Positions 2,008-27,658 of a stretch of 51,837 nucleotides of DNA are shown here, in pieces; the first letter of the stretch is position 1, and every line of letters begins with the position of its first letter. The translations under genes were made by a program, and so were the position numbers. A model generated the notes under the pieces. That model was not told where the DNA came from. It saw nothing but the letters and a program-made list of their open reading frames with translations, and did not search any database. Source of the stretch: an uncultured bacterium (lineage in GTDB: Bacteria; Patescibacteriota; Minisyncoccia; Phycocordibacterales; UBA2100); assembly GCA_903854215.1 (NCBI GenBank), contig CAINVT010000013.1, forward strand, positions 1 through 51,837, in the 5' to 3' direction.

Positions 2008-2030
2008 ACGTCCGATAAAAATCCTTTTTG

Positions 2031-2178
2031 CGGGCGATGAGGGATCGGTCAGGGATAATTTCTGCGCCTGATTTAGCAAAATCACCTACTGGGTTCGCGC
2101 AGAAATTTCCACGACCCTGCCTCGCCGCCCGTTCTACTGAACGGGACCCCGGCTGCGGCTTTCGATTCCCTCATCGCC
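2031..2178. repeat. tRNA-Trp-3'-end-flanked palindromic element (element E1)
   Basis: Left arm GGCGATGAGGGATCG and right arm TTCGATTCCCTCATCGCC are inverted copies of the tRNA-Trp T-arm/acceptor 3' end; core shared with elements at 19.5 and 27.5 kb. Confidence 0.75.
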
Positions 2179-2225
2179 TACACTCTATATCACCTGATAC
2201 AATATTTTCCACCTTCGCTCGATTC

Positions 2226-2331
2226 AGCGGGCATTGCTCGCCGAAGTCGAGCTTCGGCGAGATGAATGTTTCCTTCGCAACCTAGCGGGCTTTGCCCGCC
2301 GAAGGTCGCTTCGGCGACCGAAGGCGGGCTG
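2226..2331. repeat. REP-like palindromes, two related units
   Basis: AGCGGGCATTGCTCGCCGAAGTCGAGCTTCGGCGAG and AGCGGGCTTTGCCCGCCGAAGGTCGCTTCGGCGACCGAAGGCGGGC. Confidence 0.7.
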
Positions 2332-2409
2332 TCAGCAGCCAGAACCCCAGATGCTAGTAACCATAAGGATATTCTAGCGTGTTTTTGGACGATATCCCGA
2401 GCCCTCGAC

Positions 2410-3390
2410 AACAAGGGTCATTATCGTTAACTAATCAAGACCTTGGAACCGCTTGAGAGAATTTCAGCAGGCGTCTTGAAATCGATACCCATATGCATCC
2501 GCTCGGTGTTGTAGTACGGGAGATACCTCCTGAGAGCGATTTTGAATGCAGGGACTGACCGGACGATACCGGTCAGGCACTCATCCTGGAGCGTCCGGTT
2601 GAACCGTTCGATATGCGAATTGTCATTCGGTGTACGTACGCGCGAGTGTCGGTGCGCAACTTTCATACGAATGAGACGGTGTGTGAATCGGGTCGAGAAT
2701 TCAGGTCCATGGTCGGTCTGCACCATCTCGAAGGGGAACGACGCATGCTTCTGGGCTCGTGCGAGGAACTGCGCGCTTCCGTATGCACGGAGCTTCGGTG
2801 ACACTTCCGCATACGCCCAGCGGCTGAACAAGTCGATCAGTGTGTATACATACAGACGTGAACCATCAGGCAAGATGAAATGCACCGTATCGCACTGCAA
2901 GAGAGCGCCAGCATGGGTAGCGATGGGGCGCGGTGTCGCATCGTGCGGCCGTTTCCACGGACTCCGTTCTTTGAGCAGATGTGCTCGCTTCAGTGTCCGC
3001 TGTACCGAGCAAAGAGAGACCGCGATACCGTCCCTGAGTAGTTCGCGGTGCACCACCTGCCCACACCGACGGCGACCGATGCGCTTCTCGATGATGGCAG
3101 CTACGATCTCGCGCGGGAGCGCCCGTGGCGAAGTCTTCGGCTTCGAAGACCGTGTCTCGATCTTCCGGAAACCTCCGGTCGGATCCTTCGCGCACCACTT
3201 TACGACTGCGCTGTGCGTATACCCGAAGTGCCGTGCAACCTTCCGAACTGACCAACCTTCTTGCTTTACTAATCGGACCGCTTCCCGACGAACCTTCGGG
3301 AGCTCTGGATTCATGCTGTATGCCATGTATGTCATATTCGCAGATGGGGTGGTTCCAAGCTATTGAAACATTACGAGACATTGACGTTTA
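2410..3390 (-). mobile_element. IS element (IS481/IS3-like) with imperfect terminal inverted repeats around CTTGGAACC
   Basis: DDE transposase plus inverted CTTGGAACC/GGTTCCAAG near both ends (2442-2450, 3351-3359); outer boundaries uncertain. Confidence 0.5.
2427..3335 (-). CDS. HTH + rve integrase-core (DDE) transposase
   Basis: N-terminal HTH (WSVRKVARHFGYTHSAVVKW); LLQCDTVHF...DLFSRWAYAEV...QTDHGPEFS...PNDNSHIERFNRTLQDE. Confidence 0.92.
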   Translation of the reverse strand: MTYMAYSMNPELPKVRREAVRLVKQEGWSVRKVARHFGYTHSAVVKWCAKDPTGGFRKIETRSSKPKTSPRALPREIVAAIIEKRIGRRRCGQVVHRELLRDGIAVSLCSVQRTLKRAHLLKERSPWKRPHDATPRPIATHAGALLQCDTVHFILPDGSRLYVYTLIDLFSRWAYAEVSPKLRAYGSAQFLARAQKHASFPFEMVQTDHGPEFSTRFTHRLIRMKVAHRHSRVRTPNDNSHIERFNRTLQDECLTGIVRSVPAFKIALRRYLPYYNTERMHMGIDFKTPAEILSSGSKVLIS

Positions 3391-3409
3391 CGATATATGA
3401 TTGTATTAT
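3381..3409 (+). promoter_or_regulatory. Sigma-70 type promoter for the 3458 gene
   Basis: TTGACG-17 nt-TATTAT. Confidence 0.6.
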
Positions 3410-3457
3410 ATTGTTCAGTTGATATTCGATTCCAGGACTACAATGGAGATTCCTGCC

Positions 3458-4072
3458 ATGAGTGCGCAAATCATCTCGCTCCAAAACGCTAAAAGAAGTC
3501 GCGTGCGTTGTCCCGAGACCGGCGTCGTCTTCCCTCAGTTATATCGTCTTACCGGCTTTCACTTCAAACTGAAAGCGGGCAGGACATTGGTCGATGGGTT
3601 CCTCAAAAGCGATGACGACCTTGAGGCCGATCTGAACGCCCCCACTCCCCCAGCCTACACGCTGGATGCGGAGACGCTCTATGGCGGCGTTGCCGACCCG
3701 AAGTGGGAACCCATCCATCAACTTGATACGACGATCGATGACTGGCTGGTCTATATTCGACATCACGCGAGCGGCGGCGATTTGGAGGCCTACATCGACG
3801 CGATGTGCGATACCGAGACGTATGAGATCGATGATCGTTGGTTGGGTTTCCACACAGAATTCGGGAGCTTCTCTGTCCTCCACCGCAACGCGAATCGTGA
3901 CGCTCCGAATTGCGCGCTCGTGTACGTGACCAAGATCGGCGATCCACTGTACGGTGGGACGATGGACTGGCACAAAGTCATCGGTAGCGACGGCGAGGAA
4001 ATGGACATCGACGATCTCAATCCGCCGGAAGTTCAGGAGCAGATGGCTCCTATAAAGAACCTGGCGAAATGA
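3458..4072 (+). CDS. Hypothetical protein (~204 aa)
   Basis: ORF with upstream GGAG Shine-Dalgarno, promoter upstream, terminator downstream; no recognised domain. Confidence 0.7.
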   Translation: MSAQIISLQNAKRSRVRCPETGVVFPQLYRLTGFHFKLKAGRTLVDGFLKSDDDLEADLNAPTPPAYTLDAETLYGGVADPKWEPIHQLDTTIDDWLVYIRHHASGGDLEAYIDAMCDTETYEIDDRWLGFHTEFGSFSVLHRNANRDAPNCALVYVTKIGDPLYGGTMDWHKVIGSDGEEMDIDDLNPPEVQEQMAPIKNLAK

Positions 4073-4097
4073 CAATAAATGATCGGCTGATGAGCCG

Positions 4098-4136
4098 GGA
4101 CCCAAGTAGCGATACTTGGGTCCATCTTTTTTTGCA
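4098..4136 (+). terminator. Intrinsic terminator
   Basis: GACCCAAGTA-GCGA-TACTTGGGTC followed by T7. Confidence 0.85.
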
Positions 4137-4196
4137 TGAAAATGCCGCCCATATACCGGGGCGGCGTCGGTTAGAACTGTTTTGGTAGACACAACA

Positions 4197-6467
4197 TCAC
4201 CCTTGCGATTGTAGGCGTGGTGTCTGTGTTTCCGAAGGCGGATCGAGAGCCGAACACACGGGGCAACCTATCGCCTCATGTAATCGCTCGCGCGGCGATG
4301 CCATGTAGGCAAAGCCACATGACCTGCATACCCACCAGTACGCGGCAGTACTTCCTTGCGAGACATACGCCGCTCCTGCTGAATTGCGTTCCGAATACTC
4401 GTTTGAAAGAACCGGGTGTTCGGCGACGCTGGGTCCGATTGTCTCTTCAGACTCTTTTTTCGGGTTATGGCAACGTGGACACGAACGATCCGCGATACGT
4501 TGTCTGACAGATGCCCACCACTTGTGAGCACAGTAGGGGCACAGCCAATAACGATCGCGATTGCTGTGGATCGATATATTTGGAGCAAGATGAGTGAACT
4601 CAAGTTCTGCTGCCAGATCGGGATAGACCAGATCGAGCTGCGTTTCCTTGCTCGCTATCCTACCCGAGCAGACCGGACACCCAACTCCCTTTTTCAGGCG
4701 AGCTGCAGTCCGTCCCCTCCACTCATGTCCACATTTGTCGCACTGCCACCACGGAACTGGCGATGGCAAGATGTTTCGAGCGGAATATTGTTGGAACAAA
4801 TCATGACGCTCGATGGAAAGTGTGTTGAGCGTCGACCGCTCAAAACACTCCGGGCAACCGTGACCGGCGGCGAATCGCCGAACACGGGAAGCTCCGATCT
4901 CGTCCCATTCGTAGCCGCATGTCGCATCCGTGCATTGCCACCGAAGAGTGTGGCTGCTGTGCGGAGTCACCTGAGTTGCGGGCAGTTCGTTCTTGGCCGA
5001 ATACTCCTTCACGAGTTGCGGGAAGCAAAACGCAAGATTGTTTTCTGCCGTAACGACCTTCCCTTCGCACGCCGGACATTTCGACCCTGAAAGGCGTCGG
5101 ATACCGGATGCCTGCCACTCGTAGTGACATTTATGACACTCCCACCAGAGAATGGCGGAGGTGCGAGCATACACGCGATCGGCGGTCGTAATGTTCTTGG
5201 AGGAATAATCCTTGGCGAGCCGCGGAATCTCCGAGACATATTTAGGCCGCATTCCCTCAAGAAGGTCGAGAACTTTGATGACCTTCTCATTGAAATGCAA
5301 CCTGCTACCGCTCTGACTACTCGCCTGCTGGCTTTCTCGTTCACTCCGCTGCCAACGAGGACCATTGCCCGACTCGCGCCTGGCACGCTCCCCTTCGACT
5401 TTCTTCCAGAGACTTTGGACCATCTTGATCCGTTCGCAGTTGGCGACAAAATCAAGAGCGATCACCCGGTCTTTTCCTTGAAAGCGACGTAAGCCGCGGC
5501 CAAGTTGTTGCGAGAAGATATTGGGCGACTCGGTTGAACGAAGAAACGCGAGAACGTTCGCCTGTGGAATGTCGATCCCTTCGTTGAAGCAGTCGACAGT
5601 CACAGCCGTCGTCACCATTCCCTGACGGAATAGTTCCATACGGATATTTCGCTCCTTCATCGGCACGCGGGAGTGGATCGCCAGACTGCCTGGCATAGAT
5701 TCACAGAACTTGTCACACTTATCGAGCGATGAGGTGAAGACGATGATGCGCGGATCGGCGAACTCGGCGGCATGCCGAGCGATGATTGCCGCGATCTCCT
5801 CGTCCCCTTTCTCGACGAAGATCCGCTTGTTGAGTTCACTGACAGAGATCTTTGATCCCGGCCGCGCAAGCGCGGCGTCGATGCTCATTTCATCAGCAAG
5901 TAGCCGATAGTCGACGGGCGTGAGTAGCCCGTTCGCCATCGCCACTTCGAGCGGCAGGTAGAAGAGTTCCGGGCCATAGAGATCCCGAATATCCAGACCA
6001 TCCAACCGATCTGGTGTCGCGGTAACACCGAGTAGCCAGTCAGGAGTGAAATACTCGATGACCGACCGATAGGTCTGCGCTTGTGAATGGTGGCTTTCGT
6101 CAACCACGATGTACTCGAACGCTTTCGGATCGAAGGATCGGAAATGCTGGCCCATGGTTTGGAATGACGCGAAAACGCCATCCATGTTGTGGACCTTTTT
6201 TTCCTGCCCGTGAAAGTAGCCGAACGAGAGCTTGTTCTCCAAGACTGACTCGAACGTGGTTCGGGCCTGGTAAAGAATGTCGTTCTGGTCGCACAAGTAC
6301 ATGAAGCGACCCTTGCACGACTCCCGCCACTGCCGGACGTCAAACGCAACCGTTACTGTTTTTCCGAGTCCGCTCGCCATGACGACCAGACCCTTTTTCT
6401 TTCCTGTCTGACGGGCGACTTGTACTTGCCCGAGACAGTCGCTCTGGTAGTCATACGGCTCAAACAT
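4197..6467 (-). CDS. SF2 DEAD/DEAH helicase with five C-terminal zinc-ribbon (DUF4379-like) repeats
   Basis: Walker A-like VMASGLGKTVT, DESHH box, QQLGRGLRR motif VI; five WxCxxC...CPxC repeats. Start trimmed to MFEPYDYQ with SD GGAG. Confidence 0.88.
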   Translation of the reverse strand: MFEPYDYQSDCLGQVQVARQTGKKKGLVVMASGLGKTVTVAFDVRQWRESCKGRFMYLCDQNDILYQARTTFESVLENKLSFGYFHGQEKKVHNMDGVFASFQTMGQHFRSFDPKAFEYIVVDESHHSQAQTYRSVIEYFTPDWLLGVTATPDRLDGLDIRDLYGPELFYLPLEVAMANGLLTPVDYRLLADEMSIDAALARPGSKISVSELNKRIFVEKGDEEIAAIIARHAAEFADPRIIVFTSSLDKCDKFCESMPGSLAIHSRVPMKERNIRMELFRQGMVTTAVTVDCFNEGIDIPQANVLAFLRSTESPNIFSQQLGRGLRRFQGKDRVIALDFVANCERIKMVQSLWKKVEGERARRESGNGPRWQRSERESQQASSQSGSRLHFNEKVIKVLDLLEGMRPKYVSEIPRLAKDYSSKNITTADRVYARTSAILWWECHKCHYEWQASGIRRLSGSKCPACEGKVVTAENNLAFCFPQLVKEYSAKNELPATQVTPHSSHTLRWQCTDATCGYEWDEIGASRVRRFAAGHGCPECFERSTLNTLSIERHDLFQQYSARNILPSPVPWWQCDKCGHEWRGRTAARLKKGVGCPVCSGRIASKETQLDLVYPDLAAELEFTHLAPNISIHSNRDRYWLCPYCAHKWWASVRQRIADRSCPRCHNPKKESEETIGPSVAEHPVLSNEYSERNSAGAAYVSQGSTAAYWWVCRSCGFAYMASPRERLHEAIGCPVCSALDPPSETQTPRLQSQG

Positions 6468-6531
6468 TGAGCTTCTCCGTTTGAGTGGACTCAGCATGAC
6501 GCTGTGTCAACGAACACGTTTATCTCTTCGC

Positions 6532-6596
6532 AAGATATCATTCAAACAACAATACGTCAAATAAATATTGACATGATGTCAACTTAAATATACAAT
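6532..6596. promoter_or_regulatory. Divergent promoter pair with palindromic operator-like site
   Basis: + strand TTGACA(6568)-17-TACAAT(6591); - strand TTGACG(6560)-17-TATCTT(6537); palindrome TTGACA-TGA-TGTCAA at 6568-6582. Confidence 0.6.
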
Positions 6597-6645
6597 AGTT
6601 TGAGACGTATATGCCGATCTTTTCAACTTCACGAGGAGGCAAACC

Positions 6646-8100
6646 GTGACGCATACAGAAGCTTTCGACTTCCGAGAGCTCGAGGCGCGCGGTTTCAAGC
6701 CGCAAGCTAGAGGCATTCTCGAAAAGGCAATTTCCCGCGGGAGAATCTTCCCTCAGGAGATTTCCATGATCCTCTCTGGATCCATCGCTAGCGACCGGCA
6801 ACAGGTTTCAAAGACGGTTGTCTGGCTTGGTACGGAGCTGCGGCGCCTGAGTGTGACCGTCGCGACCGGCAAGGACGTTGTGGAATTCAAGCATGAGGTC
6901 GTTCCGTTTGTGAACGGCTCCGGTGCTAATCCAAAATCTAACGGAAAGCGTCTCAACGGCAAGGCCGTAGAAAAGCCACCTGCCGAAGAGAAAGAAGGAA
7001 CTTCTGGTCAGGAAATTCTCCTACCTTCGGAAGAGACTCCGGAAACGGATGCGCTCGACGAGGGTCCAGTAGGACCGCAAGAGCTCGACGAGGCAGAGGT
7101 GGCAAGAGTGAACGCCGCCATGCTCGAAGATCAAGGCTCGCGCTTCGAGTCCGACGCGCTCGCGTGTTACTACAAAGAACTCGCGCGCTTCAAGTTGCTG
7201 ACATTCGAGGAGGAATTCCAACTCGGATGGCAAGTGAAAGAAAAGCAGGATCACGCGGCGCGCAACAAACTCGTCGAGCACAATCTTCGGCTCGTCCGGT
7301 GGGTCGCGCGCAAGTATGCCTGGAGCGAACTTCCCTTCGAGGATCTAATCCAAGAAGGAAACATCGGTCTGATGATCGCGGCGGATAAATACGACTACCG
7401 CGTCGGCAGATTTACCACCTATGCAATGTGGTGGGTCCGTCAAAGGATCACTCGTGCAATCATGGACTATGGCAGCCTCATCCGCGTCCCGGTCCACTTG
7501 CAAGAGAATCGATTGAAGGTCGTGAAGGCAGCCGGAGAAATCGCGTTCAAGACCGGTCGTCAACCGACCTTGGCCGAGGTCGCTGAAGCTACCAAGCTTC
7601 CGGCGAAAATGGTGCAGGCAATCCTAACTCGGACAAGCATCAAGGTGATCTCGCTTGATCAACCTGCATTTCGAGGCGATTCGTCGGACCGATTTTCTCA
7701 CCCGATGAGTTATGCCGAGATCATGCCTGACCACATGGCGCTCGATGGTACCCACATCATCGAGGCACGTGACGAACTCCAGGCGGCTCAAAGACGAGTC
7801 GCCGGCGTAATAAAGGCGATCGAGTCGATTGGTTCACCTTCCCGTGGCCCCAGTGGACCAACTAACGGACATTATGCGAGCATCTTTCGCACGTTCTACG
7901 GTCTCGATGGTTCGGCAGAAAGGAGAACCCTCGAAGAAACTGGTGCTGTCTACGACGTCACACGCGAGCGGATTCGTCAGGTTATCGCCAAGATCTGGGC
8001 CAATCTCGCGGAACAAGGGTTCGACATGGACCACGATGCCTTCCTTCAGGAGATGTCGTGCATCGAAGAACTCTCGAAGCTCGTCCATACGGCTTCATAG
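6646..8100 (+). CDS. Sigma-70 family RNA polymerase sigma factor (RpoD-like)
   Basis: Region 2 NLRLVRWVARKY..LPFEDLIQEGNIGLMIAADKYDYRVGRFTTYAMWWVRQRI and region 4 ...VTRERIRQVIAKIW; GTG start after AGGAGG. Confidence 0.93.
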   Translation: MTHTEAFDFRELEARGFKPQARGILEKAISRGRIFPQEISMILSGSIASDRQQVSKTVVWLGTELRRLSVTVATGKDVVEFKHEVVPFVNGSGANPKSNGKRLNGKAVEKPPAEEKEGTSGQEILLPSEETPETDALDEGPVGPQELDEAEVARVNAAMLEDQGSRFESDALACYYKELARFKLLTFEEEFQLGWQVKEKQDHAARNKLVEHNLRLVRWVARKYAWSELPFEDLIQEGNIGLMIAADKYDYRVGRFTTYAMWWVRQRITRAIMDYGSLIRVPVHLQENRLKVVKAAGEIAFKTGRQPTLAEVAEATKLPAKMVQAILTRTSIKVISLDQPAFRGDSSDRFSHPMSYAEIMPDHMALDGTHIIEARDELQAAQRRVAGVIKAIESIGSPSRGPSGPTNGHYASIFRTFYGLDGSAERRTLEETGAVYDVTRERIRQVIAKIWANLAEQGFDMDHDAFLQEMSCIEELSKLVHTAS

Positions 8101-8107
8101 CTCATTT

Positions 8108-8143
8108 ACCCACCCGTCTTAGTTGACGGGTGGCTCTTTTTTA
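8108..8143 (+). terminator. Intrinsic terminator
   Basis: CCACCCGTC-TTAGTT-GACGGGTGG CTC T6. Confidence 0.85.
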
Positions 8144-8150
8144 TAATCGA

Positions 8151-8179
8151 TTGACTTTTTCTGGTAGTCATCGTATTTT
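8151..8179 (+). promoter_or_regulatory. Sigma-70 type promoter
   Basis: TTGACT-17 nt-TATTTT. Confidence 0.5.
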
Positions 8180-8212
8180 CCTTGGAGAGTTTCCTGAAGT
8201 AAGAGGTAAGCT

Positions 8213-9178
8213 ATGAGGGACGGCAACTTCTCATTCGAGGGTGATGTCCCCTTGGCATCTTCCTCGATACGGACCTGTTCGATTTGTGGGAAGCGCTTAT
8301 CGGCGCACAATAAAATCGGACGGTGTTTCCATCATCCAGATCCTGCAGTTGAAAAGAAAAGCTTGGAGCGAGATGCTCAAGCTTCAGCAGCAATGGAAAG
8401 GAGATCGCGACAGCATGTTGTAACTACGCGAACGGCCACTTTGGCCGATATCCCAGTACCTGCTTCAGGCGGAAAAACAACGACCGCAACCGGAACCAGG
8501 AGGAATCCAGTCCCACGCGGACGAACGGGCTATCTGGTCCAGAAGACAAAGTTCTTTGAACTTCTCGCGGGAAAGGAAAAAGAACTCTTCGACGAACTCT
8601 TCAGATTGGGTCGGGAAGAAGCCTCGTATGCAGCCCGATATTTCTGCATCAATGGCGAACCTGAAAAGACCCACGGGGAGCTGGTCAAAGAAGGAACCTT
8701 TCCTTCTATCGGTGTCGAGGGGTGGGCGATCGTTTGTGCTTCCGCGATACTTCGCTATTTAGATCCCGCGTTTCCGGTTTCTAAGCACACAGCAATGCAC
8801 GCTCAAAACATCCGGAGCTGGGTGCTGAAACACAGGGACGTGGCGGCAGATTCGCAGGAGCGGCAACGACGGTATGAAGATGTACTGACAAAGATTCAAG
8901 CTGTAGGCATCTCTCAACTGCCGAAGGCTATGCCAGAGCGGTACTACAACTTCTACCTTGAACTCGCACGAGCATGGGACAAAAATAAGTTCGCCGAACT
9001 AAAGCAGCACGCACGGCTCGCTTCCATCATCGGCACACGATGGGGGTTTGAGGATGGATGCTTCTACACGCTCGAAGAGATCGCTGATGTCGAGCAGATA
9101 ACCCGAGAGCGTGTCCGCCAGATAGAACAAAAAGCACTCAAGCTACTCGGAGTGATAGCAAAGCCCTCGGAAACTTAG
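8213..9178 (+). CDS. Zinc-finger plus sigma-70 region-4-like DNA-binding protein
   Basis: N-terminal CSICGKRLSAHNKIGRCFHH; C-terminal TLEEIADVEQITRERVRQIEQKALKLL. Confidence 0.75.
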   Translation: MRDGNFSFEGDVPLASSSIRTCSICGKRLSAHNKIGRCFHHPDPAVEKKSLERDAQASAAMERRSRQHVVTTRTATLADIPVPASGGKTTTATGTRRNPVPRGRTGYLVQKTKFFELLAGKEKELFDELFRLGREEASYAARYFCINGEPEKTHGELVKEGTFPSIGVEGWAIVCASAILRYLDPAFPVSKHTAMHAQNIRSWVLKHRDVAADSQERQRRYEDVLTKIQAVGISQLPKAMPERYYNFYLELARAWDKNKFAELKQHARLASIIGTRWGFEDGCFYTLEEIADVEQITRERVRQIEQKALKLLGVIAKPSET

Positions 9179-9179
9179 T

Positions 9180-9213
9180 GGGAGCCGCCAACATGATTGG
9201 CGGCTCTTTTCTT
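9180..9213 (+). terminator. Intrinsic terminator
   Basis: AGCCGCCAA-CATGA-TTGGCGGCT followed by CTTTTCTTT. Confidence 0.8.
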
Positions 9214-9283
9214 TGGAGTTTAAGTGAACTTCAACGATCCCAAGACGGTCGCATTTCGGTAAGGAATTTAGCAGCATCTGCCC

Positions 9284-9312
9284 TTGACGTGATGGTGGAA
9301 ATATGCTAATAA
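9284..9312 (+). promoter_or_regulatory. Sigma-70 type promoter
   Basis: TTGACG-17 nt-TAATAA. Confidence 0.5.
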
Positions 9313-9358
9313 GTGCGTAGAGTGCCCTTCGACAACTTCATACGCACAGGAGAGACCA

Positions 9359-11053
9359 ATGTCCCTTAAAGCCATCGATACGTTAAGCACCTCGCAGAGG
9401 GATACCCTGAACCTCCTGGCGGAAGGCCTTGGAAACGTTCAGATCGCCCAACGGTGCCGAACCTCGCTTGATCGCGTCGGCGGCATGCTCGAGGATCTCT
9501 ACGATGCCCTCGGGCTAGAGCCGAGTCTGCCCAAACAGGAAAAGCGTGGACTGGCGATAAACCACTGTAAAAGAAACAGCACGGGAATGACCCTCTTCGA
9601 ACAAACGACTCCTGCTGCCTTCTTGGAGGGTCTTAAACCCTGGCAACGTCAAGCTCTGACGGGAGTCGCACAGAATAAGAAAACCGAAGATATCGCGGCA
9701 GAAGTCGGAGTCACCACGGACGACATCGAAATGACCCTTGCTCGATTTATGGTGTCGGTCAAAGTACCGACCCAAGATAAGGCAATCGAGTTTCTCAAGC
9801 AGGTGGTGAACGTCACAGGCCAACCGATCGAACCAGGACGCGGTTATTCCAGTAGTGGTGACAGGCAAGCATCTCCGCAAGCACAAACGACTGCCGACCC
9901 GGCAAAAGTTTCTGCACAGCCGTCAAACGTTACCTTGAACGAACAAGATCAGCGGATCGACAAAATCCTCATCCTCGTCGAACAGGGAAAAAGCAACGAC
10001 GAAATCGCTGATAAACTCAAGACAACCGTCGGAACGATCGGCACGGCGATGTCCGGTCTATATCGTCGTTTCAACTTGGAAAGACAACCAGGCGGAAACA
10101 AAAAGGAAAGACGCATGCTTCTGGTCAAACATTGGCGCACATATCAAGCGGACGCCGCCGATCAGAAAAATCAACGTGCCGAGCCTCAAATGCCCGCCAC
10201 CCCTGAAGATCCTACATCGGTGGTCGTGCCGCAGGAGAAAGTTACTATACAGAGCGCACCTTCCGAATTGGTGCCAGCTTCGGCGGACTCGACGGAGGAA
10301 ACGGTTCCTGCAGTTGCTTCCATTGCATCGGCAGAAACGGTTACTCAGAACAATGTCGAATGCACACTCACCCTCGAGCAGGCATTCGAGCGCATAGTCG
10401 CCGCTGGTCGTGCGGCACCTTCTGAGCGATCATTGCAACGTTATTGCCTTGAGGGCCGTCTCGTCGCACAAAAGGCGCGTACAACCCTTGGTTCTGAATG
10501 GCTTATCAATGCAGCGTCGTTAGTACGCTTCATCGAGTTGGAACCGCTTGCTCGTGAAAACGACGGTGCTATGGCGGTTGCCTCTGGAGAAACGGTGTTC
10601 TTGAAACCGCCGACCAACGCCGCGGAGAAGAAGGAAAATAAATACCAACTCGCGCGTGACCTGGTGATTCGGACGAGAAATTGCACAAACTTTTTCGTCC
10701 GACGGAAACTTTGCATGGGCGGCCCCGAGTTCAAGGACGTCATCCAGCGGTTGGAAGACGAAGGAGTCGTCGGCAAAATCGGCAGCGGCGATCGCGGCGG
10801 CCGTCAAATATTGCTACCGCCGCCGCAAGATGCTGTCGCGCAGGATACTTCGTTCGCTACCGATCAGGTTCGACAGAACCGGTCGTCGTCGAGATCGATA
10901 TTCTCCGACAACGAGAAGACCGAGAAGCTTCAGGAGCTCCTATTGGTGGTCGGCGACAACAGCCAACTGGGACAGATCCTGGATGAGATCATCGACGATC
11001 TCGCACGTATGGAGAAAATGCGCCAGATTATCAAGCTCCTCAAAGAGGACTGA
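9359..11053 (+). CDS. Multi-HTH regulator: three LuxR-like HTH segments, an excisionase/HTH_17-like segment, and an FtsK-gamma-like winged helix
   Basis: LSTSQRDTLNLLAEGLGNVQIAQRC; LKPWQRQALTGVAQNKKTEDIAAEV; LVEQGKSNDEIADKLKTTVGTIGTAMSGLYRRF; YQLARDLVIRTRNCTNFFVRRKLCMGGPEFKDVIQRLEDEGVVG resembles FtsK gamma. Confidence 0.7.
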   Translation: MSLKAIDTLSTSQRDTLNLLAEGLGNVQIAQRCRTSLDRVGGMLEDLYDALGLEPSLPKQEKRGLAINHCKRNSTGMTLFEQTTPAAFLEGLKPWQRQALTGVAQNKKTEDIAAEVGVTTDDIEMTLARFMVSVKVPTQDKAIEFLKQVVNVTGQPIEPGRGYSSSGDRQASPQAQTTADPAKVSAQPSNVTLNEQDQRIDKILILVEQGKSNDEIADKLKTTVGTIGTAMSGLYRRFNLERQPGGNKKERRMLLVKHWRTYQADAADQKNQRAEPQMPATPEDPTSVVVPQEKVTIQSAPSELVPASADSTEETVPAVASIASAETVTQNNVECTLTLEQAFERIVAAGRAAPSERSLQRYCLEGRLVAQKARTTLGSEWLINAASLVRFIELEPLARENDGAMAVASGETVFLKPPTNAAEKKENKYQLARDLVIRTRNCTNFFVRRKLCMGGPEFKDVIQRLEDEGVVGKIGSGDRGGRQILLPPPQDAVAQDTSFATDQVRQNRSSSRSIFSDNEKTEKLQELLLVVGDNSQLGQILDEIIDDLARMEKMRQIIKLLKED

Positions 11054-11076
11054 GAAACTGGCGAAGCAGAGACTCG

Positions 11077-11108
11077 CCCCGATCCAAAAGATCGGGGCTT
11101 CTTTTTTA
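11077..11108 (+). terminator. Intrinsic terminator
   Basis: GCCCCGATC-CAAAA-GATCGGGGC TTC T6. Confidence 0.85.
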
Positions 11109-11155
11109 CGATATAAAAGAAAACCACCGGCCCGAAGGTCGGTGGTCATTTCGCA

Positions 11156-12949
11156 TTATTTTGGAATGGCGGTTGCCCACCAGAGAGTCCTTTTGACGAT
11201 CGGCCCCAAATCGGTATGCCGTTCGTAATTCCATGCCAACCCGACCACTCTCTCGGCCTCCATGGTCGAGCCGACAGGTAGCTTCCTCGGCGTCGATCCT
11301 GGCACGTCACTTATGTAGTCGCTCGAGACTTGCGATCGGTTGAATACGCAATCGGAGAGACCTGCGACGATCCATTTTGCTTGCAACGTCCGATGCGGCC
11401 TGGTTTGGGTAAGACCGAGCCGGGCCAGACGCTCGACTACAAGAGCGCGTTGCTCTTCCAGCCGCTTGAAGGTCGTAGGATCAATGCCGTACTCGCTCAG
11501 TTTGTGTGACGGAATGAGACACGCCGCGTCAAAGGTTTTTATGTCCTTGAACGCGTCGGAATCTCCAAGTTCGACATATTCCCCGGTGATGAACTCGCGT
11601 CCCTCCTCCGTTTTGAACTCGATCTGTCTCGAACCGAAAAGCACCGAGAGCGTGATCGCGTTGTAGTCGGCTGTCTTGTTTTGCCAGTCCACCGCCTCGA
11701 GCAACATTCGAGCCGCTCGCGGTTGCATGGGTAGTAGTGCAGCCTTCCTTCCGAGTTCCGTGATCCGATCTTGTGCATCCACGAGGCCGATCCTTTTGAG
11801 AACCTCTCGTGCTTCCCTGATGTGATCAAGGGCAGGCGGGTGGAAGAACGCGAGTTCCTCCGGTTCGTACCCAGCAGACAAGACATGCAATACGACCCCC
11901 GATATGTCTTCTTTGATGATCGAAGGAGTCGAGAACAGTGCTCGTTCGGGAAGCGGGACATCGGAGCAGTCGATATAGAAGCCGGACTTCGTCCGACCCG
12001 CACGGCCGCGACGCTGTTCCCGCTCGGCGAGAGCTACGGGTCTTGTATAAAGCCCGTTTACACCATTCTTGTATTCCTGCCCCCTTTGAAGCCCGCTGTC
12101 GACGACTGCGTCGATGTCGGGAATCGTGAGGGAGGTCTGCGCGATAGTGGTCGCGACGATACATTTTGGTTCATCGAAAGATTCGAAGATCCAACCGATA
12201 TCGTCGGCGTTAAGATCGGCATGGAATGGCAGACACTTCGCCGACACTCCGGAGCGCTCCACACTTTGTATCGTCCGTCTGATCTCCTCCTTGCCGGGAA
12301 CGAATACGAGCACGTTGTGGCCGCGCTTAAGCATTCGGACCGCTGCCCCCGCCGCGTGTCCTGTGTGTTCGATTTCTTGAACGGGAAACGGCTTGCCCTC
12401 GCAGTTGATAACTTCAGCGTCGCCGAAGAATTCAGCAAGTTGGTCCGCCTCAATCGTTGCCGAGAGAATGACAATTTTGATTTGCGTTCCCTCGGACAGT
12501 TGTCGCTTGAACCACGCGATCAGAAGCTCCAAGTTCAAGTTCCATTCGTGAGCTTCATCGATCACGAAAACGGTTTCCGTGGGATTCTTCGCGTGATGGA
12601 GCTGACGCAGAACTTCGATGCCGTCGGTGCAGTAGAGGAGACGCGTATCGGATGAGACCCGTTCGCTATATCCCGTCTGAAATCCGACCAGGCCGCCAAT
12701 TTCTGCCTTCATCTCGAAGGCGACATGACGCGCCAGTGACTCTGCCGCAACTCGACGCGGTTCGGTAACTACGACGAGCTCGAACATGTCCAGCAACATA
12801 ACCGGGATCTTGGTGCTTTTGCCGGTTCCCGTTGGGGCGACGACGATGACGACATTGTGGGCCTTGAGGGCTTCCAATATGTCATCTCTGTGTTGCTCGA
12901 CTGTGGAAAAAGTCGGGGTTGAGGTGACAATCTTTGCTAAGGCTTCCAT
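11156..12949 (-). CDS. DEAH-box helicase, HrpA/HrpB-like
   Basis: VVAPTGTGKSTKIP, DEAHEWNLNLELL, LSATIEADQLAEFF, QRRGRAGRTKSG. Start trimmed to MEALAK. Confidence 0.88.
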   Translation of the reverse strand: MEALAKIVTSTPTFSTVEQHRDDILEALKAHNVVIVVAPTGTGKSTKIPVMLLDMFELVVVTEPRRVAAESLARHVAFEMKAEIGGLVGFQTGYSERVSSDTRLLYCTDGIEVLRQLHHAKNPTETVFVIDEAHEWNLNLELLIAWFKRQLSEGTQIKIVILSATIEADQLAEFFGDAEVINCEGKPFPVQEIEHTGHAAGAAVRMLKRGHNVLVFVPGKEEIRRTIQSVERSGVSAKCLPFHADLNADDIGWIFESFDEPKCIVATTIAQTSLTIPDIDAVVDSGLQRGQEYKNGVNGLYTRPVALAEREQRRGRAGRTKSGFYIDCSDVPLPERALFSTPSIIKEDISGVVLHVLSAGYEPEELAFFHPPALDHIREAREVLKRIGLVDAQDRITELGRKAALLPMQPRAARMLLEAVDWQNKTADYNAITLSVLFGSRQIEFKTEEGREFITGEYVELGDSDAFKDIKTFDAACLIPSHKLSEYGIDPTTFKRLEEQRALVVERLARLGLTQTRPHRTLQAKWIVAGLSDCVFNRSQVSSDYISDVPGSTPRKLPVGSTMEAERVVGLAWNYERHTDLGPIVKRTLWWATAIPK

Positions 12950-13094
12950 TGTCGTGATCCTTCTATGTGAATGTGCACTAAGAAATACTATACAATCAAT
13001 TGTAGATAAAATCAATACCGCCGTCGGTCAAAAAGAAAACGGGCCGGTATTCATTGCCGACCCGTTGAGCCGAGACACACTCGGCGAAGAATAA

Positions 13095-13637
13095 TCACGT
13101 GGTCACTGCCTCCGACCGCATTTTCCTTCTATGACTTATTGCGGTATTCGTGACCTTGGCGACCCCAAGCTCGTTGGGTTCCTCCAGTTCAAAGCGCTTG
13201 GGAAATTGGCCCTGCATTTCGAAGCGAAGGTTGAGCCGCCCCTCCTCGGCGTGGACAAATCCGTAGTGCCTTGTCCAGAATCTCATGGCGAGATCGTCGA
13301 GGTAAGATTCGACCGATTGATCGAGGCCGTCGCCGGAGCGATTGAACTCGAATGACACGACCGTGTAATTCTTCACCTTCGCGAGACGCTCTTGTCCCGT
13401 CGCTTTGGTTAGAACAAATCCCGACTCGACAAGCCGATCCCGGATGAAATCGGCTGAAACTGGCGCGTCAAATTCGAGCATTTCGCCACGATGTGCCTGA
13501 CTTCGAGCCCGACGCGCGGTGCCCTGTTCTTGCGTCTCTCTTGAGACCGCGATACCGACGGGAAACGAGTGAGTTTCAAGCGGACCGGAAAGCTTGAACT
13601 GAACAAGAACTTTCTGCACACATGAGAGAGCGGCCAT
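13095..13637 (-). CDS. Hypothetical protein (~181 aa)
   Basis: ORF with SD-like AAGGGGA upstream of MAALSCV; no recognised domain. Confidence 0.6.
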   Translation of the reverse strand: MAALSCVQKVLVQFKLSGPLETHSFPVGIAVSRETQEQGTARRARSQAHRGEMLEFDAPVSADFIRDRLVESGFVLTKATGQERLAKVKNYTVVSFEFNRSGDGLDQSVESYLDDLAMRFWTRHYGFVHAEEGRLNLRFEMQGQFPKRFELEEPNELGVAKVTNTAISHRRKMRSEAVTT

Positions 13638-13776
13638 TGTTCGTCCCCTTTTCAACAGAATGGCACCGATATAATGCTGTGTATTATTAAAGCTGTCAAT
13701 CCCGACATTTGTTACCAACAGCCGGGGCTCGACAACACCCTTGACTCCCCTATGGGTCAGCGTCATCCCCTAGGGT

Positions 13777-15099
13777 ATGGAAACTACAACAATAGCTGTA
13801 GGGGTTATTAGCAAACCAGAGGTTCAAGAGGCAAAGAAAGTGAAGTACTGCTTGTATGCGAGGAAGAGCACTGAATCGGAAGAACGTCAGATACTTTCGA
13901 TTGACTCCCAGATCAAAGAGATGTTGCAACTCGCGGAACGCGAGAGGCTTGAGGTCGTATCAATGAAGCGCGAGTCGCACTCGGCAAAAGAGACCGACCA
14001 GCGACCGGTATTCAACGAGATCATCGCTGAGATTCGTGCAGGCAAGTACAACGGCATCCTCACCTGGGCGCCAGATCGCATCAGTAGAAATGCCGGCGAT
14101 CTTGGCAAGGTCGTCGACCTTATGGATTCTGGCGGCCTGCAGGAGATCCGGACATACAGTCAGAGTTTCAGAAACAATCCGAATGAGAAATTCTTGTTGA
14201 TGATCCTCGGCTCGCAGGCGAAGCTCGAGAATGATAACCGTGGCATCAATGTGAAGCGCGGACTGCGCACGCGCGTCGAAATGGGCCTCTGGCCCGGTCT
14301 CGCACCGACCGGCTATCTCAATCAGCGATTAATGGACAAGAAGTGCCAAGTGATCGTCGATCCGGAACGAGCACCCGTCATCAAGAGGGCTTTCGAGAAG
14401 GTGGCATACGACGGATGGTCTGGCCAGAAGGTATATCACTGGCTTCGGTTTGAACTCAACTTCTACACGACCGGCAACAAGCCGCTCTCGCAGGGCAACC
14501 TCTATCGTCTCTTTATCAATCCCTTTTACTACGGCGTCTTCGAATACCCCAAGAAGAGCGGCAACTGGTACCAGGGCAAACACGAGCCACTGATCAGTAA
14601 GGAGCTGTACGATCTCGTGCAGAGTAAGCTCAGGCGTGAGAGCACAATACGGCGGACGCATGAGTTCGCCTTCACCAAGCTCATCATCTGCGGCCTATGT
14701 GGATCAACGTTCAGCGCCGAAGAGAAATACAAACAGCTCAAGGACGGCACGGTCGCCAAATACATCTATTACGGATGCTGCCGGTCGAAAGACCGGATGT
14801 GCAAGAATAGCTATTTCCGCGAGGAAGAATTGATAGATGAACTGGTAAAGCTGATCGATCAGATCAACTTTAACGACGTCGGCATCCAGAAGAAACTCGA
14901 GGATGAGCTGAAGCGGTTCAATAAGTTTCAGCGGGTCGTGCTTGGCATGACCAACTCACAAAACACGCACGAAGAAGTCGACTTAAAAACCTACGTCAAA
15001 TACACGCTAAAGAATGGTTCGAACGAGGAGAAGCGCGAGCTGATGGGATGCTTCAGATCGAAGATACAGATCACGAAGGGTGTGCTGACGATCGAATGA
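13777..15099 (+). CDS. Large serine recombinase/site-specific recombinase
   Basis: N-terminal YCLYARKSTESEERQILSIDSQ, resolvase SRNAGDLGKVVDLMD, Recombinase domain, zinc-ribbon CGLCGSTFSAEEKY...YGCCRSKDRMCKN. Confidence 0.93.
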   Translation: METTTIAVGVISKPEVQEAKKVKYCLYARKSTESEERQILSIDSQIKEMLQLAERERLEVVSMKRESHSAKETDQRPVFNEIIAEIRAGKYNGILTWAPDRISRNAGDLGKVVDLMDSGGLQEIRTYSQSFRNNPNEKFLLMILGSQAKLENDNRGINVKRGLRTRVEMGLWPGLAPTGYLNQRLMDKKCQVIVDPERAPVIKRAFEKVAYDGWSGQKVYHWLRFELNFYTTGNKPLSQGNLYRLFINPFYYGVFEYPKKSGNWYQGKHEPLISKELYDLVQSKLRRESTIRRTHEFAFTKLIICGLCGSTFSAEEKYKQLKDGTVAKYIYYGCCRSKDRMCKNSYFREEELIDELVKLIDQINFNDVGIQKKLEDELKRFNKFQRVVLGMTNSQNTHEEVDLKTYVKYTLKNGSNEEKRELMGCFRSKIQITKGVLTIE

Positions 15100-15172
15100 T
15101 CGTATCGTCTCAGACAGACTTCAGAATGGGAACCTTTGACCATTCCAGAATGGACATTTATCCTGTATCTAC

Positions 15173-15469
15173 ATGCAAATCATCCAAGGCGTCCTTATAA
15201 CCATTATTGCCGCTTTTATCATCTATTGGCTCGGGATTGGTGGATCAAAGACCGTCATCACAATCGAGGGCACGCGAGTCACCAAGAAGTGGAAAGTGCT
15301 TATCGTGATCGGCTGGATCATGTTTGTAGGAGGCGGTCTTTATTGCCTTTCATGGGCTTCGGTGTCTGGATTCAATAACCCTAAAACCGGCATTGGGTTC
15401 TCATTGGCCTTCGTCGGCCTAATCATACTCTTTATTGGAAAGTTTGGCGCTTGGTGGAATCGACACTGA
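15173..15469 (+). CDS. Small membrane protein (~98 aa)
   Basis: Three hydrophobic segments. Confidence 0.6.
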   Translation: MQIIQGVLITIIAAFIIYWLGIGGSKTVITIEGTRVTKKWKVLIVIGWIMFVGGGLYCLSWASVSGFNNPKTGIGFSLAFVGLIILFIGKFGAWWNRH

Positions 15470-15480
15470 TGATTCTGAGG

Positions 15481-16587
15481 TCATTGATCATATCGAATGA
15501 CTCTTCGTACAATACGATTCTCAGGTATGTTCTTAATCTTCGATTCGACAAATTGAATGACCGTCAGACCCGTCTCAGTCCTTGAGATGATTTCCCTGAG
15601 GGCCGGAAAAATGTGCAGTTGAGTTCCTTCACCACCCTCCCCCTTGAAGTGCTTCAGCCAGACGAGGGCGTGCTTGGTATTTCTCCTCATCTCGATAAGA
15701 GTCACGGTTACGCTTTCAACACCCAGGAAAACGATGTACTCGTATTCCTCATTGCGATTCAATCGTTTCCCTTTTGCTACGGCCTTCTGGGCCTGCTCAT
15801 ACATAAAGGCCTGAGTTTGGGGAGGAAGGAAACTACACATGCATCTGCTCCGTCCGATCGTCGGTGAGTTTATAACCAGACAGTCGTGCCTAAAACACGT
15901 ACTGACGTGCTTCTCTGTAGCGCCGCCATATTCTATAAACAAAATATCTGGTTGCCAGCGCCCTCCATTTCCGTCGATTAAAAGGCCGCAGAAAGCTCCT
16001 CCTATCCCTCTCTCCATCTGCGGACTAAAAAGATTGTAGCTCTGGAAAATTCCCAAGAGAGCGCTCAAAGCCCACTCCGGTTTATCAGGAATCTTGGACA
16101 ATACATCTCTTATCCACGTTTCGGTTAACTGCCTATGGATAGGAAGCGGATTACCAATCTGCACTATTTCCTCGTTCTCACTGATCTGGCTATCGTGATT
16201 AGCGTTGAATGCGATAAGTCTTGGAGTGCCGTCGTGATATGCAACAACCATTTGCAATGTCCTCCCTTGTGGAAATGGGTTTGCGAAAAGAGCCCAGTTT
16301 AATGCTTCTCGCGGAATATCTCCTTGATCGATTCTCTCGTAGAACGAGGTGGCAACTCGTATTGCGAGCCCATAGCTACCAGCAAATGTAATGCCTATAT
16401 TTTTCCTTAGGAACAGCTTCACCACCCTTTCCTCGACTCGCGCATCCTCTTGTTCGTTAAGAACGTGTGCCTGACCAAAACTCGATTCAACAACGTGAAA
16501 ATTTAAAGGGTCCGGCGGGCTGGTCAGCGCCGTGTCCGCAGCAAGAAAAACTTCCGAATCAGATTTCCAAGCTAAGGCGTACGTCAT
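15481..16587 (-). CDS. Proteasome-beta-fold (Ntn-hydrolase-like) protein
   Basis: MTYALAWKSDSEVFLAADTALTS...KLFLRKNIGITFAGSYGLAIRVA resembles proteasome beta/HslV N-terminal pattern with Thr after initiator Met. Confidence 0.6.
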   Translation of the reverse strand: MTYALAWKSDSEVFLAADTALTSPPDPLNFHVVESSFGQAHVLNEQEDARVEERVVKLFLRKNIGITFAGSYGLAIRVATSFYERIDQGDIPREALNWALFANPFPQGRTLQMVVAYHDGTPRLIAFNANHDSQISENEEIVQIGNPLPIHRQLTETWIRDVLSKIPDKPEWALSALLGIFQSYNLFSPQMERGIGGAFCGLLIDGNGGRWQPDILFIEYGGATEKHVSTCFRHDCLVINSPTIGRSRCMCSFLPPQTQAFMYEQAQKAVAKGKRLNRNEEYEYIVFLGVESVTVTLIEMRRNTKHALVWLKHFKGEGGEGTQLHIFPALREIISRTETGLTVIQFVESKIKNIPENRIVRRVIRYDQ

Positions 16588-16596
16588 AATGGGGCA

Positions 16597-17391
16597 TTAA
16601 GCCGCAAACGGGTCGAGAGGATCATTGTTGACTACAGGTGTCGCATCGCGTATCTCTCTTGTCGCATTGGCAGGAATCCCGCCCGAAGGTAGGACGTATA
16701 GTCCTGCGCAACCTCGCGCGGTATCGGCACTTTGAGGACCTAGGTCTTTCCAGTCATAAATATTTAAGGCAAAAATGCACATCCATGCCTCATCGTTGTC
16801 TGACTTTACCCAAAAACATTCGTACGTGAATTTGTCTCGGTTACAGATAATCTTGTCCAGATTACCGTTCTCACGATTGCCTTTGATAGCCTCGACAAAC
16901 TTCGAGTGCTGCGGCTTGATATCTTCCATCACAATTTTTCCATCAACAATCGAACCGATTGGAAAAGGGGTCTCCAAGGTTCCGAACGTATCGATTCCTA
17001 TTCGGACAGCAGGTTCGCGATAGAGCGCCGCGTGAAAACCGGAAATCCATCTCCAGATTGCCTCTTTGATATTAAGGTCACCAGCATCTATCGCGGGACT
17101 GCCTCCGACTTTTTTAAGCTTCAGGCGCACATCCTTTGGGTCGCTCGGTATTCGTCCTGACTGTGGAGCGAGAAGTTGACCCATCATCTCATCGGTCAGA
17201 TTATGCGCATTGTTGCATGCCTTATGTGTCGGCAATATGAGCGGGTCTCTGTGGTCTGTATGAAAGATAGTTTTCGGCGGCAGGTGGTCTCGATCTGTCT
17301 CATCAAGCGGTACAAAATTACCTCCGCACAAATAGCAAAAAGGGAGCGTCTGAACCGCCCTTCGATTAGTTTGGGTTTCCAAAATCACCAT
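16597..17391 (-). CDS. HNH-endonuclease-like protein
   Basis: FCYLCGG...DRDHLPPKTIF...LPTHKACNNAHN: C..C, DH.P, H..CN. Confidence 0.75.
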   Translation of the reverse strand: MVILETQTNRRAVQTLPFCYLCGGNFVPLDETDRDHLPPKTIFHTDHRDPLILPTHKACNNAHNLTDEMMGQLLAPQSGRIPSDPKDVRLKLKKVGGSPAIDAGDLNIKEAIWRWISGFHAALYREPAVRIGIDTFGTLETPFPIGSIVDGKIVMEDIKPQHSKFVEAIKGNRENGNLDKIICNRDKFTYECFWVKSDNDEAWMCIFALNIYDWKDLGPQSADTARGCAGLYVLPSGGIPANATREIRDATPVVNNDPLDPFAA

Positions 17392-17473
17392 GACCTTGAT
17401 ACTACATGGAAAGTCTCGGCAGCGCATCGCAGGGGTAGGCCCTCGACATACTACCGATACTAATTTTCAAGAG

Positions 17474-17544
17474 CGGGCGATGAGGGAATCGAACCCCCGA
17501 CATCGGTTTTGGAGACCGAAGTTATACCATTTAACTAATCGCCC
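17474..17544 (-). tRNA. tRNA-Trp (CCA anticodon)
   Basis: Cloverleaf GGGCGAT...TCGGT-CTCCAAA-ACCGA...GGGGGTTCGATTCCCTC-ATCGCCC; CCA not encoded. Confidence 0.95.
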
Positions 17545-19383: not shown

Positions 19384-19466
19384 GCGTCGGTGGCGGAGTG
19401 GTCAATCGCACTTGGCTGTAAACCAAGCGACTTCGGTCTACGGGGGTTCGAATCCCTCCCGGCGCA
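19384..19466 (+). tRNA. tRNA-Tyr (GTA)
   Basis: GCGTCGG acceptor pairs CCGGCGC; anticodon stem CTTGG-CTGTAAA-CCAAG; long variable arm. Confidence 0.95.
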
Positions 19467-19516
19467 CAAAAACAGTTAGGGCCCAGAGCATGTCTCTGGG
19501 CTCTTACTGTTTTCAG

Positions 19517-19640
19517 CCAGGAGGGATTCGAACGGACGGAGGCACGGGACCCACAGCTTGCTGTGGGACGCCGAGTCAGGGCAGTGACCACTTAGCGCAT
19601 GGCGCTTAGTGAGTCACGCTCGATTCCCTCCTGGGCGCAA
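19517..19640. repeat. tRNA-Tyr-3'-end-flanked palindromic element (element E2)
   Basis: CCAGGAGGGATTCGAACG ... CGCTCGATTCCCTCCTGG inverted arms matching the tRNA-Tyr T-arm; internal hairpins CCCACAGC/GCTGTGGG and GTGAC.CACTTAGCGC/GCGCTTAGTG.GTCAC. Confidence 0.8.
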
Positions 19641-27352: not shown

Positions 27353-27424
27353 GGCCTGGTGGCGAAGTGGTAACGCGTGAGTCTGCAAAACTCTTATGCG
27401 TGGGTTCGATTCCCACCCAGGCCT
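27353..27424 (+). tRNA. tRNA-Cys (GCA)
   Basis: GGCCTGG/CCAGGCC acceptor; TGAGT-CTGCAAA-ACTCT anticodon arm. Confidence 0.95.
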
Positions 27425-27457
27425 CAGAATGGGAATACGGTGCGTGTGCACCATATG

Positions 27458-27565
27458 TTGGGAATCGAAAGCCGCAGCGCTGTCGCTTTGCGACCGCGAG
27501 GCCGGGCCGGCGGTACTTAGCGCCGCAGCGCTTAGTAACCGTGGCCGATTCCCACACAGGCCTCA
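27458..27565. repeat. tRNA-Cys-3'-end-flanked palindromic element (element E3)
   Basis: Inverted TTGGGAATCGAA and direct CGATTCCCACACAGGCCTCA (19/20 identical to tRNA-Cys 3' end 27407-27426); core shared with E1 and E2. Confidence 0.8.
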
Positions 27566-27658
27566 AAAGTTTGTCCGTATGGTAGATTTATATGTATGCC
27601 TCACTTCACCAAGGCTTCGCGGGGCAATGTCCACCGTCGCGAAGGCTTTGGCGAGAAT

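Follow-up and report, generated by a model that had tools for sequence, protein, structure and literature searches.

What is the palindromic, repeat-flanked segment that lies behind the tRNA-Tyr gene in a 51,837-nucleotide stretch of DNA from an uncultured member of the Patescibacteria (the window; contig C13, part of a 1.1-Mb genome)? A preliminary description, made from the letters alone, had noted at this locus (E2) an inverted copy of the tRNA end, a core of two hairpins and a direct copy of the tRNA end, with two similar loci (E1 and E3) elsewhere in the window, and had suggested a mini mobile element of tRNA 3' ends or a tRNA-processing RNA. We consider it likely that these loci belong to a family of small (about 75-180 bp), non-autonomous, non-coding mobile DNA elements of Patescibacteria that insert in the 3' ends of conserved genes. 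Such a family would be a variant of the non-autonomous integrative elements, unusual in its target-matching arm.

An empty site was found in a comparison of the genomes G453 and G454, in which the flanks are about 98% identical. In G453, the tRNA-Leu gene (GAGTCTCCCCATGCCCAC|CCGGGG) runs uninterrupted into tRNA-Val. In G454, a 129-bp unit sits between two exact copies of the 18-mer GAGTCTCCCCATGCCCAC, and the left and right flanks, taken from two contigs that end inside or just past the element, equal the empty site. The two genomes also differ at tRNA-Asp, where G453 has this element but G454 another. Perfect repeats of 61, 57, 56, 48, 47, and 34 nt occur at other copies, and some of these include the natural terminator. 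In genome G038, tRNA-Glu(ctc) and tRNA-Glu(ttc) are followed by units that are near-identical from the T-arm to the right copy (97% in the core), and the similarity ends on both sides; this is within-genome copying of the element.

As the preliminary description had proposed, relatives were searched with a covariance model, seeded with E1 (its P3 loop shortened in the alignment), E3, E4, and E5. The model found the element in 59 of the 71 genomes of the bacterial family, in all six genera, at up to 31 copies per genome; G012, G020, G036, G037, and G046 have no copy, and G038, G039, G047, and G052 have 17-31. The window's own genome holds about 14 copies instead of the three first described; a scan of its tRNA genes had already shown two beyond those three, behind tRNA-Val(gac) and tRNA-Met. 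A phylum-wide sample had the element in 41 of 384 genomes (33 of 317 genera). An exact-pattern scan of GTDB returned 71 loci, nearly all from Patescibacteria; the records are labelled Candidatus Kaiserbacteria and other Paceibacterota, which places the family in this phylum. One model-confirmed copy (L231:3268-3379), behind a tRNA-Asp gene and with an exact 21-nt repeat, comes from a 2.3-Mb genome labelled Endomicrobiales, on a contig whose genes are unusual for Patescibacteria; this suggests transfer beyond the phylum. A pattern match from the Betaproteobacteria (L196) was not confirmed by the covariance model. No Rfam family matched at gathering score, a permissive Rfam scan of the E2 region was likewise negative, and our literature search returned no matching description, in line with the earlier impression that this is no described family. 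The element family is apparently a widespread, undescribed mobile DNA of Patescibacteria. Separately, Rfam matched a group I intron about 1.1 kb from one element (L069:196-410).

Among 211 distinct copies, 140 lie downstream of a same-strand tRNA at a distance of at most 150 bp, and nine are near a tRNA in any other arrangement. By chance, fewer than 0.1 of the 18 matches in G038 (one contig, 859 kb) would be expected in such positions, as estimated from 46 tRNAs, 150 bp each, on one strand. Together with the exact 18-bp duplication at the empty site, these position statistics bear out the mini mobile element suggested at the outset. Not all targets are tRNAs: three copies sit behind tmRNA genes, single copies behind rpsI and a membrane-protein gene, and seven (L047, L048, L054, L144, L152, L154, and L186) at one identical codon of a gene whose protein ends in MMEGTKTIPERCSNK..NHNPHKL, which we take to be the zinc-ribbon end of topA. 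The topA 3' end is a recurrent non-tRNA insertion site. Elements also occur in tandem behind single tRNAs, and many copies are preceded by a hairpin resembling an intrinsic terminator.

On the top strand, the parts follow one another as gene end X with its flank; a terminator-like hairpin or a small GCGAAGC-type apex; a complement of the acceptor end; hairpin Hb; T'; the core; and X again. This list is a composite, and some copies lack some parts. T' is complementary to the target on both sides of the junction, from about -4 to +8, and the second copy of X begins exactly past GACC. The three copies in the window, with their target genes, are as follows.

19384-19467, plus strand: tRNA-Tyr (gta), target gene of E2, T-loop junction GGGGTTC|GAATCC (ARAGORN, Rfam)
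19468-19516, plus strand: trailer and terminator-like hairpin (19468-19514), AAACAGTTAGGGCCCAGAG CATGT CTCTGGGCTCTTACTGTTTT (sequence)
19517-19533, plus strand: E2 inverted arm (T' plus acceptor part), CCAGGAGGGATTCGAAC, a near-complement of the tRNA-Tyr 3' end
19534-19619, plus strand: E2 core, with P2 hairpin (GGAG/CCGAG internal loop), AGGG junction, and P3 hairpin with bulged A (covariance model, 37.7 bits)
19621-19639, plus strand: E2 right arm, CGATTCCCTCCTGGGCGCA, a near direct copy of the tRNA-Tyr 3' end (sequence)
27353-27425, plus strand: tRNA-Cys (gca), target gene of E3 (ARAGORN)
27456-27469, plus strand: E3 inverted arm, a generic T-arm part (sequence, arm ranking)
27470-27546, plus strand: E3 core, P2 and P3 (covariance model, 72.3 bits)
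27547-27566, plus strand: E3 direct copy of the tRNA-Cys 3' end, matching at 18/19 over GATTCCCACMCAGGCCTCA
2161-2181, minus strand: E1 inverted arm, GTAGGCGATGAGGGAATCGAA, complementary to the tRNA-Trp 3' end (sequence, arm ranking)
2047-2160, minus strand: E1 core, P2 and P3 with an enlarged P3 loop (covariance model, 88.3 bits)
2030-2046, minus strand: E1 direct copy of the tRNA-Trp 3' end (sequence, arm ranking)
17473-17544, minus strand: tRNA-Trp (cca), matched by the E1 arms (ARAGORN, arm ranking)
2182-17472, no strand assigned: 15-kb stretch between E1 and tRNA-Trp (Pfam, tblastn)

The inverted arm, two hairpins, and direct copy first reported at E2 are thus all present; however, E2 does not stand right after tRNA-Tyr, because the terminator-like hairpin intervenes. 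For the arm ranking, the arms of E1-E3 were scored against the 3' ends of 43 tRNAs of the same genome. The E2 inverted arm ranked tRNA-Tyr first, and its direct arm gave a tie between tRNA-Tyr and tRNA-Trp. The claim that E1 and E3 take their arms from their own tRNA was right for the direct arm of E3 (tRNA-Cys first, 18 versus 9.5), but the E3 inverted arm is a merely generic T-arm (GGGAATCGAA), and E1 adjoins no tRNA. Both arms of E1 ranked tRNA-Trp first (direct 15 versus 8.5, inverted 18 versus 13.5), and the matching gene lies 15.3 kb upstream on the same strand.

Most genes in the stretch that separates E1 from this tRNA-Trp have no orthologue in the sister genome G038 (tblastn), and the stretch encodes a serine recombinase (13777-15099) and an rve-type transposase (2427-3335), as identified by Pfam; it is a candidate island. 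Sigma-70-like and helicase genes are also present in it. The elements could accordingly be read as scars, that is, as the attR ends of tDNA-targeted islands whose interior was lost or whose phage or plasmid integrase acted in trans. Genes for tRNA and tmRNA are the usual targets of integrases, and direct repeats from the T-loop to the 3' end combined with a restored target gene, as seen here, are the signature of tDNA islands (PMC4383910); in Dehalococcoides, islands that have a serine recombinase and a 20-bp repeat insert at the centre of the T-loop of tmRNA (PMC3146451). The element resembles such islands and integrative mobilizable elements (Islander; Dehalococcoides ssrA) in T-loop insertion, in the restored gene, and in the direct repeat of the gene's 3' end. 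It differs from them in its size of 75-180 bp, its lack of genes, integrase, and fixed target, its covarying three-way hairpin, and its target-complementary inverted arm; only E1 borders a stretch with a serine recombinase. The clean insertion in G454 is the 129-bp unit itself and not a deleted island, the cores are not grouped by target tRNA, and G038, a genome with 18 copies of the element, has no homologue of the window's serine recombinase. We regard an origin as island scars as unlikely.

That the arms are customised to the host tRNA, as the preliminary description put it, holds as a pattern. Across the 140 tRNA-associated copies, the direct arm scores 13.1 for its own tRNA and 5.2 for other tRNAs; its match to its own tRNA outscores that to every other tRNA in 78 of them, and the inverted arm lies above the 95th percentile of other tRNAs in 109. 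The preliminary description had named two outcomes that would speak against it, an absence of further tRNA-adjacent copies in related genomes and arms that fit the neighbouring tRNA no better than random ones; neither was observed. How the arms come to match each target is inferred. Core similarity is 0.54 between copies at the same anticodon in other genomes and no lower, at 0.53, between copies at different tRNAs, and target-specialised lineages were rejected on this ground. In the tandem L215, at three neighbouring tRNAs, Hb is near-identical and two cores are near-identical, while the arms are fitted to each tRNA. Because cores do not cluster by tRNA, and because the arms of L215 differ where Hb and core hardly do, the arms appear to be re-set; gene conversion among these neighbours is possible. 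A derivation of the inverted arm from the 5' strands of the tRNA was rejected, since the arm contains complements of the post-tRNA flank and behaves in the same way at topA. At L186, T' (ATTGTTTTCGTG) is also complementary to CACG, a stretch that precedes the junction and is present only in the left copy or an unoccupied target. The fresh insertion in G454 has a perfect repeat, and its inverted arm mismatches the target at a few positions; the arm would therefore have been either brought in as an imperfect guide or inaccurately copied.

Replication template switching alone, with no transposition, might also produce inverted and direct copies of a tRNA end. A template switch formally yields the order copy, inverted copy, copy, and template switching has been reported to create stems and to repair or maintain them (PMC8794818). 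At one locus in two close genomes (L166:6695 and L187:6319), the otherwise identical elements differ only in the P2 stem, by a paired flip from GGAGCGCGGCGGCGCG to GGAGGGCGACGGCCCG. Yet the core is homologous across the phylum and complete at new sites, and the G454 insertion combines its imperfect inverted arm with a perfect repeat. Template switching as the whole explanation strikes us as highly improbable; it is disfavoured for the core and survives for the homogenisation of arms only.

The core folds into two hairpins. P2 has the internal loop GCC-GGA-GC..GC-GA-GGC and is followed by a (C/A)GGG junction; P3 is closed by GGTCG..TGACC, with a conserved G-T pair and a bulged A. The core linker reported earlier is indeed conserved, but it is not a mere joiner; it forms part of the 3x2 internal loop of P2 plus the P2-P3 junction. 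RNA folding z-scores are -5.4 for E2 (0 of 200 shuffles as good), -8.5 for E1, and -3.2 for E3; all three fold better than their 200 shuffles. Covariation was present in every helix, with 749 and 867 double-changed cells versus 197 and 208 in shuffled alignments, and none of 500 shuffles was as high on any measure. In the variable, distal part of P3, G-T makes up 0.9% and A-C 0.4% of cells, versus 4.0% and 0.3% in the acceptor and T stems of the tRNAs at the same loci. The ratio of G-U to A-C is about 2:1 in distal P3, 1.7:1 in P1, and about 14:1 in the tRNAs; one P3 G-T pair is strongly conserved nonetheless. This strand-specific pair, together with the bulge, implies that one strand matters.

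These data bear on whether the element is a structured RNA co-transcribed with the tRNA, such as a 3'-trailer regulator or a processing RNA, with arms selected for RNA pairing. Nearly all copies are on the same strand as, and near, a tRNA; folding energies are low, helices covary, and a G-U pair is conserved on the transcribed strand. However, a terminator-like hairpin separates the tRNA from the core in many copies, wobble pairs are about four times as rare in P3 as in the tRNA stems of these genomes, presence is patchy, copies occur at topA, rpsI, and tmRNA, and the clean insertion carries a duplication. We judge a structured RNA to be distinctly improbable, and the processing RNA of the preliminary description is not supported: some copies stand at protein genes, and the pair statistics of P3 and P2 look DNA-like. 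Because double changes are common, wobble intermediates are rare, and terminator-like hairpins precede many cores, DNA is the more probable form of the folded hairpin. Such a hairpin could be a recombination substrate or could be kept perfect by template switching.

In its fold, the element shares with the integron attC site a structure-conserved, strand-asymmetric hairpin 3' of a gene, an extrahelical base (here the conserved bulged A), and an arm that repeats the sequence of the platform. An integron-like system would use the element as an attC-like site of folded single-stranded DNA and the tRNA T-arm as an attI-like platform, with cassettes (usually empty, once 15 kb at tRNA-Trp) inserted between the two by a recombinase of the Xer/Int type. 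Structure conserved beyond sequence, strands distinguished by the bulged base and a conserved mismatch, variable terminal loops, an orientation equal to that of the gene, a copy of the arm at each end, runs of elements behind one tRNA, and E1 with its 15-kb cargo would all fit. On the other hand, the junction (GACC|GA, GACC|AA) is not the R-box G|TTRRRY, the units are non-coding, the arms vary with the locus, and there is no dedicated IntI: genomes usually have one gene of the Phage_integrase family, and in G029, with six copies, none was detected. We find an integron-like system quite unlikely.

Short non-autonomous palindromic repeats at tens of copies per genome recall miniature inverted-repeat transposable elements (MITEs), repetitive extragenic palindromes (REPs), and bacterial interspersed mosaic elements, and the 129-bp non-coding unit with its 18-bp target-site duplication is MITE-like. 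The element lacks the fixed terminal inverted repeats that MITEs share with an autonomous transposon; its arms vary with the locus, and no autonomous relative was found. The co-occurrence with Y1 transposases seen for REPs and REP-associated tyrosine transposases (RAYTs) is lacking: genomes G052 and G002 have 19 copies and no Y1_Tnp, and G012 and G037 have six Y1_Tnp genes and no copies. The Y1 genes, which are numerous in the family, are flanked by different short palindromes of their own (e.g., GGAGGTTAAACCTCC). Two Y1/RAYT-like transposase genes lie in the window (40295-40963, plus strand; 49401-50126, minus strand).

Variable-length target duplications and a complement of the last 18 nt of a tRNA are shared with retroelements that use a primer-binding site (PBS) or target-primed reverse transcription, but the element has non-tRNA targets, and the reverse transcriptase family RVT_1 is absent from G038, G039, G052, G028, G060, and G062, which have 13-26 copies. 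An origin from group II intron domains D5-D6 or from a retroviral PBS was rejected, as a second core type has no bulge and copy-rich genomes have no reverse transcriptase. The RtT repeats of Escherichia coli tyrT (Rfam RF00391) lie behind a tRNA gene, and each includes a stretch of the tRNA 3' end. The element differs from them in matching no Rfam family, and we know of no RtT repeats that disperse over many tRNAs or carry an inverted arm. A tandem of tRNA-Arg 3' end, trailer, and core (L243:1390-1720; 1.6 copies, 56-nt perfect repeat) resembles the tyrT repeats.

Several observations weigh against a mobile DNA element. For none of the three candidate movers (tyrosine recombinase, PF00589; Y1 transposase, PF01797; reverse transcriptase, PF00078) does the number of genes follow the number of copies, and the single Phage_integrase-family gene of most copy-rich genomes is what would be expected of a housekeeping Xer. 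The clean empty site comes from one pair of metagenome-assembled genomes, and its occupied copy straddles two overlapping contigs with a few odd end bases. An anchored direct repeat of at least 9 nt is kept in only 83 of the 211 copies, no copy was found in viral contigs, and the P3 G-T pair, kept in about 85% of copies, shows a strand preference that RNA might explain as well.

The copies sit above all in the T-loop of tRNA and tmRNA genes, at a ..C|RA junction and in one orientation. The target is duplicated from the junction as far as the end of the gene or past it, over 18 bp in the cleanest case and over 6 to 61 nt among all copies, and the target gene therefore stays intact. If the element is mobile DNA, as we think likely, the moved unit would consist of trailer or hairpin Hb, arm T', and the P2/P3 core ending in GACC. 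T' would pair with the target over its span from about -4 to +8, and T' and the direct copy would close a three-way hairpin. An enzyme acting in trans probably recognises this hairpin as DNA, either single-stranded and folded or cruciform. The arms may serve in target recognition or may be re-templated by template switching. Speculatively, and we hold this only tentatively, the elements might form a new class of mobile DNA in which the target-complementary bipartite arm beside the folded core directs insertion in a guide-like manner and is rewritten to the new locus at each move, so that a non-coding element of about 100 bp, mobilised by a host enzyme, could re-target itself to nearly any tRNA, tmRNA, or 3' end of a conserved gene.

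Two further observations were made. Between two near-identical genomes, a tRNA-Asp/tRNA-Met segment is inverted (L261, 1666-1892; L280, 2140-2366), with breakpoints at both tRNA 3' ends, where elements sit. A second repeat family, with the core ..AAGGTGTACNGNNNCTGTAAG.., has 22 copies in 17 of the 71 genomes (loci L286-L307, e.g., L298 and L305 in G038 and L302 in the window's genome; also L280, L200, and L195); the arms of some of its copies match a tRNA, and at L292 and L307 it lies inside an element of the first type, past the GGCGGG of that element.

The Patescibacteria are a very large, barely cultivated group of ultra-small bacteria; their genomes are tiny, and classical mobile elements are considered scarce in them. 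They gain a widespread, apparently undescribed class of mobile DNA that inserts behind tRNA, tmRNA, and topA genes. The match between arm and target raises the question of whether a short complementary arm acts as a guide or is a by-product of template switching, and it makes the target choice of a mobile element readable from sequence.
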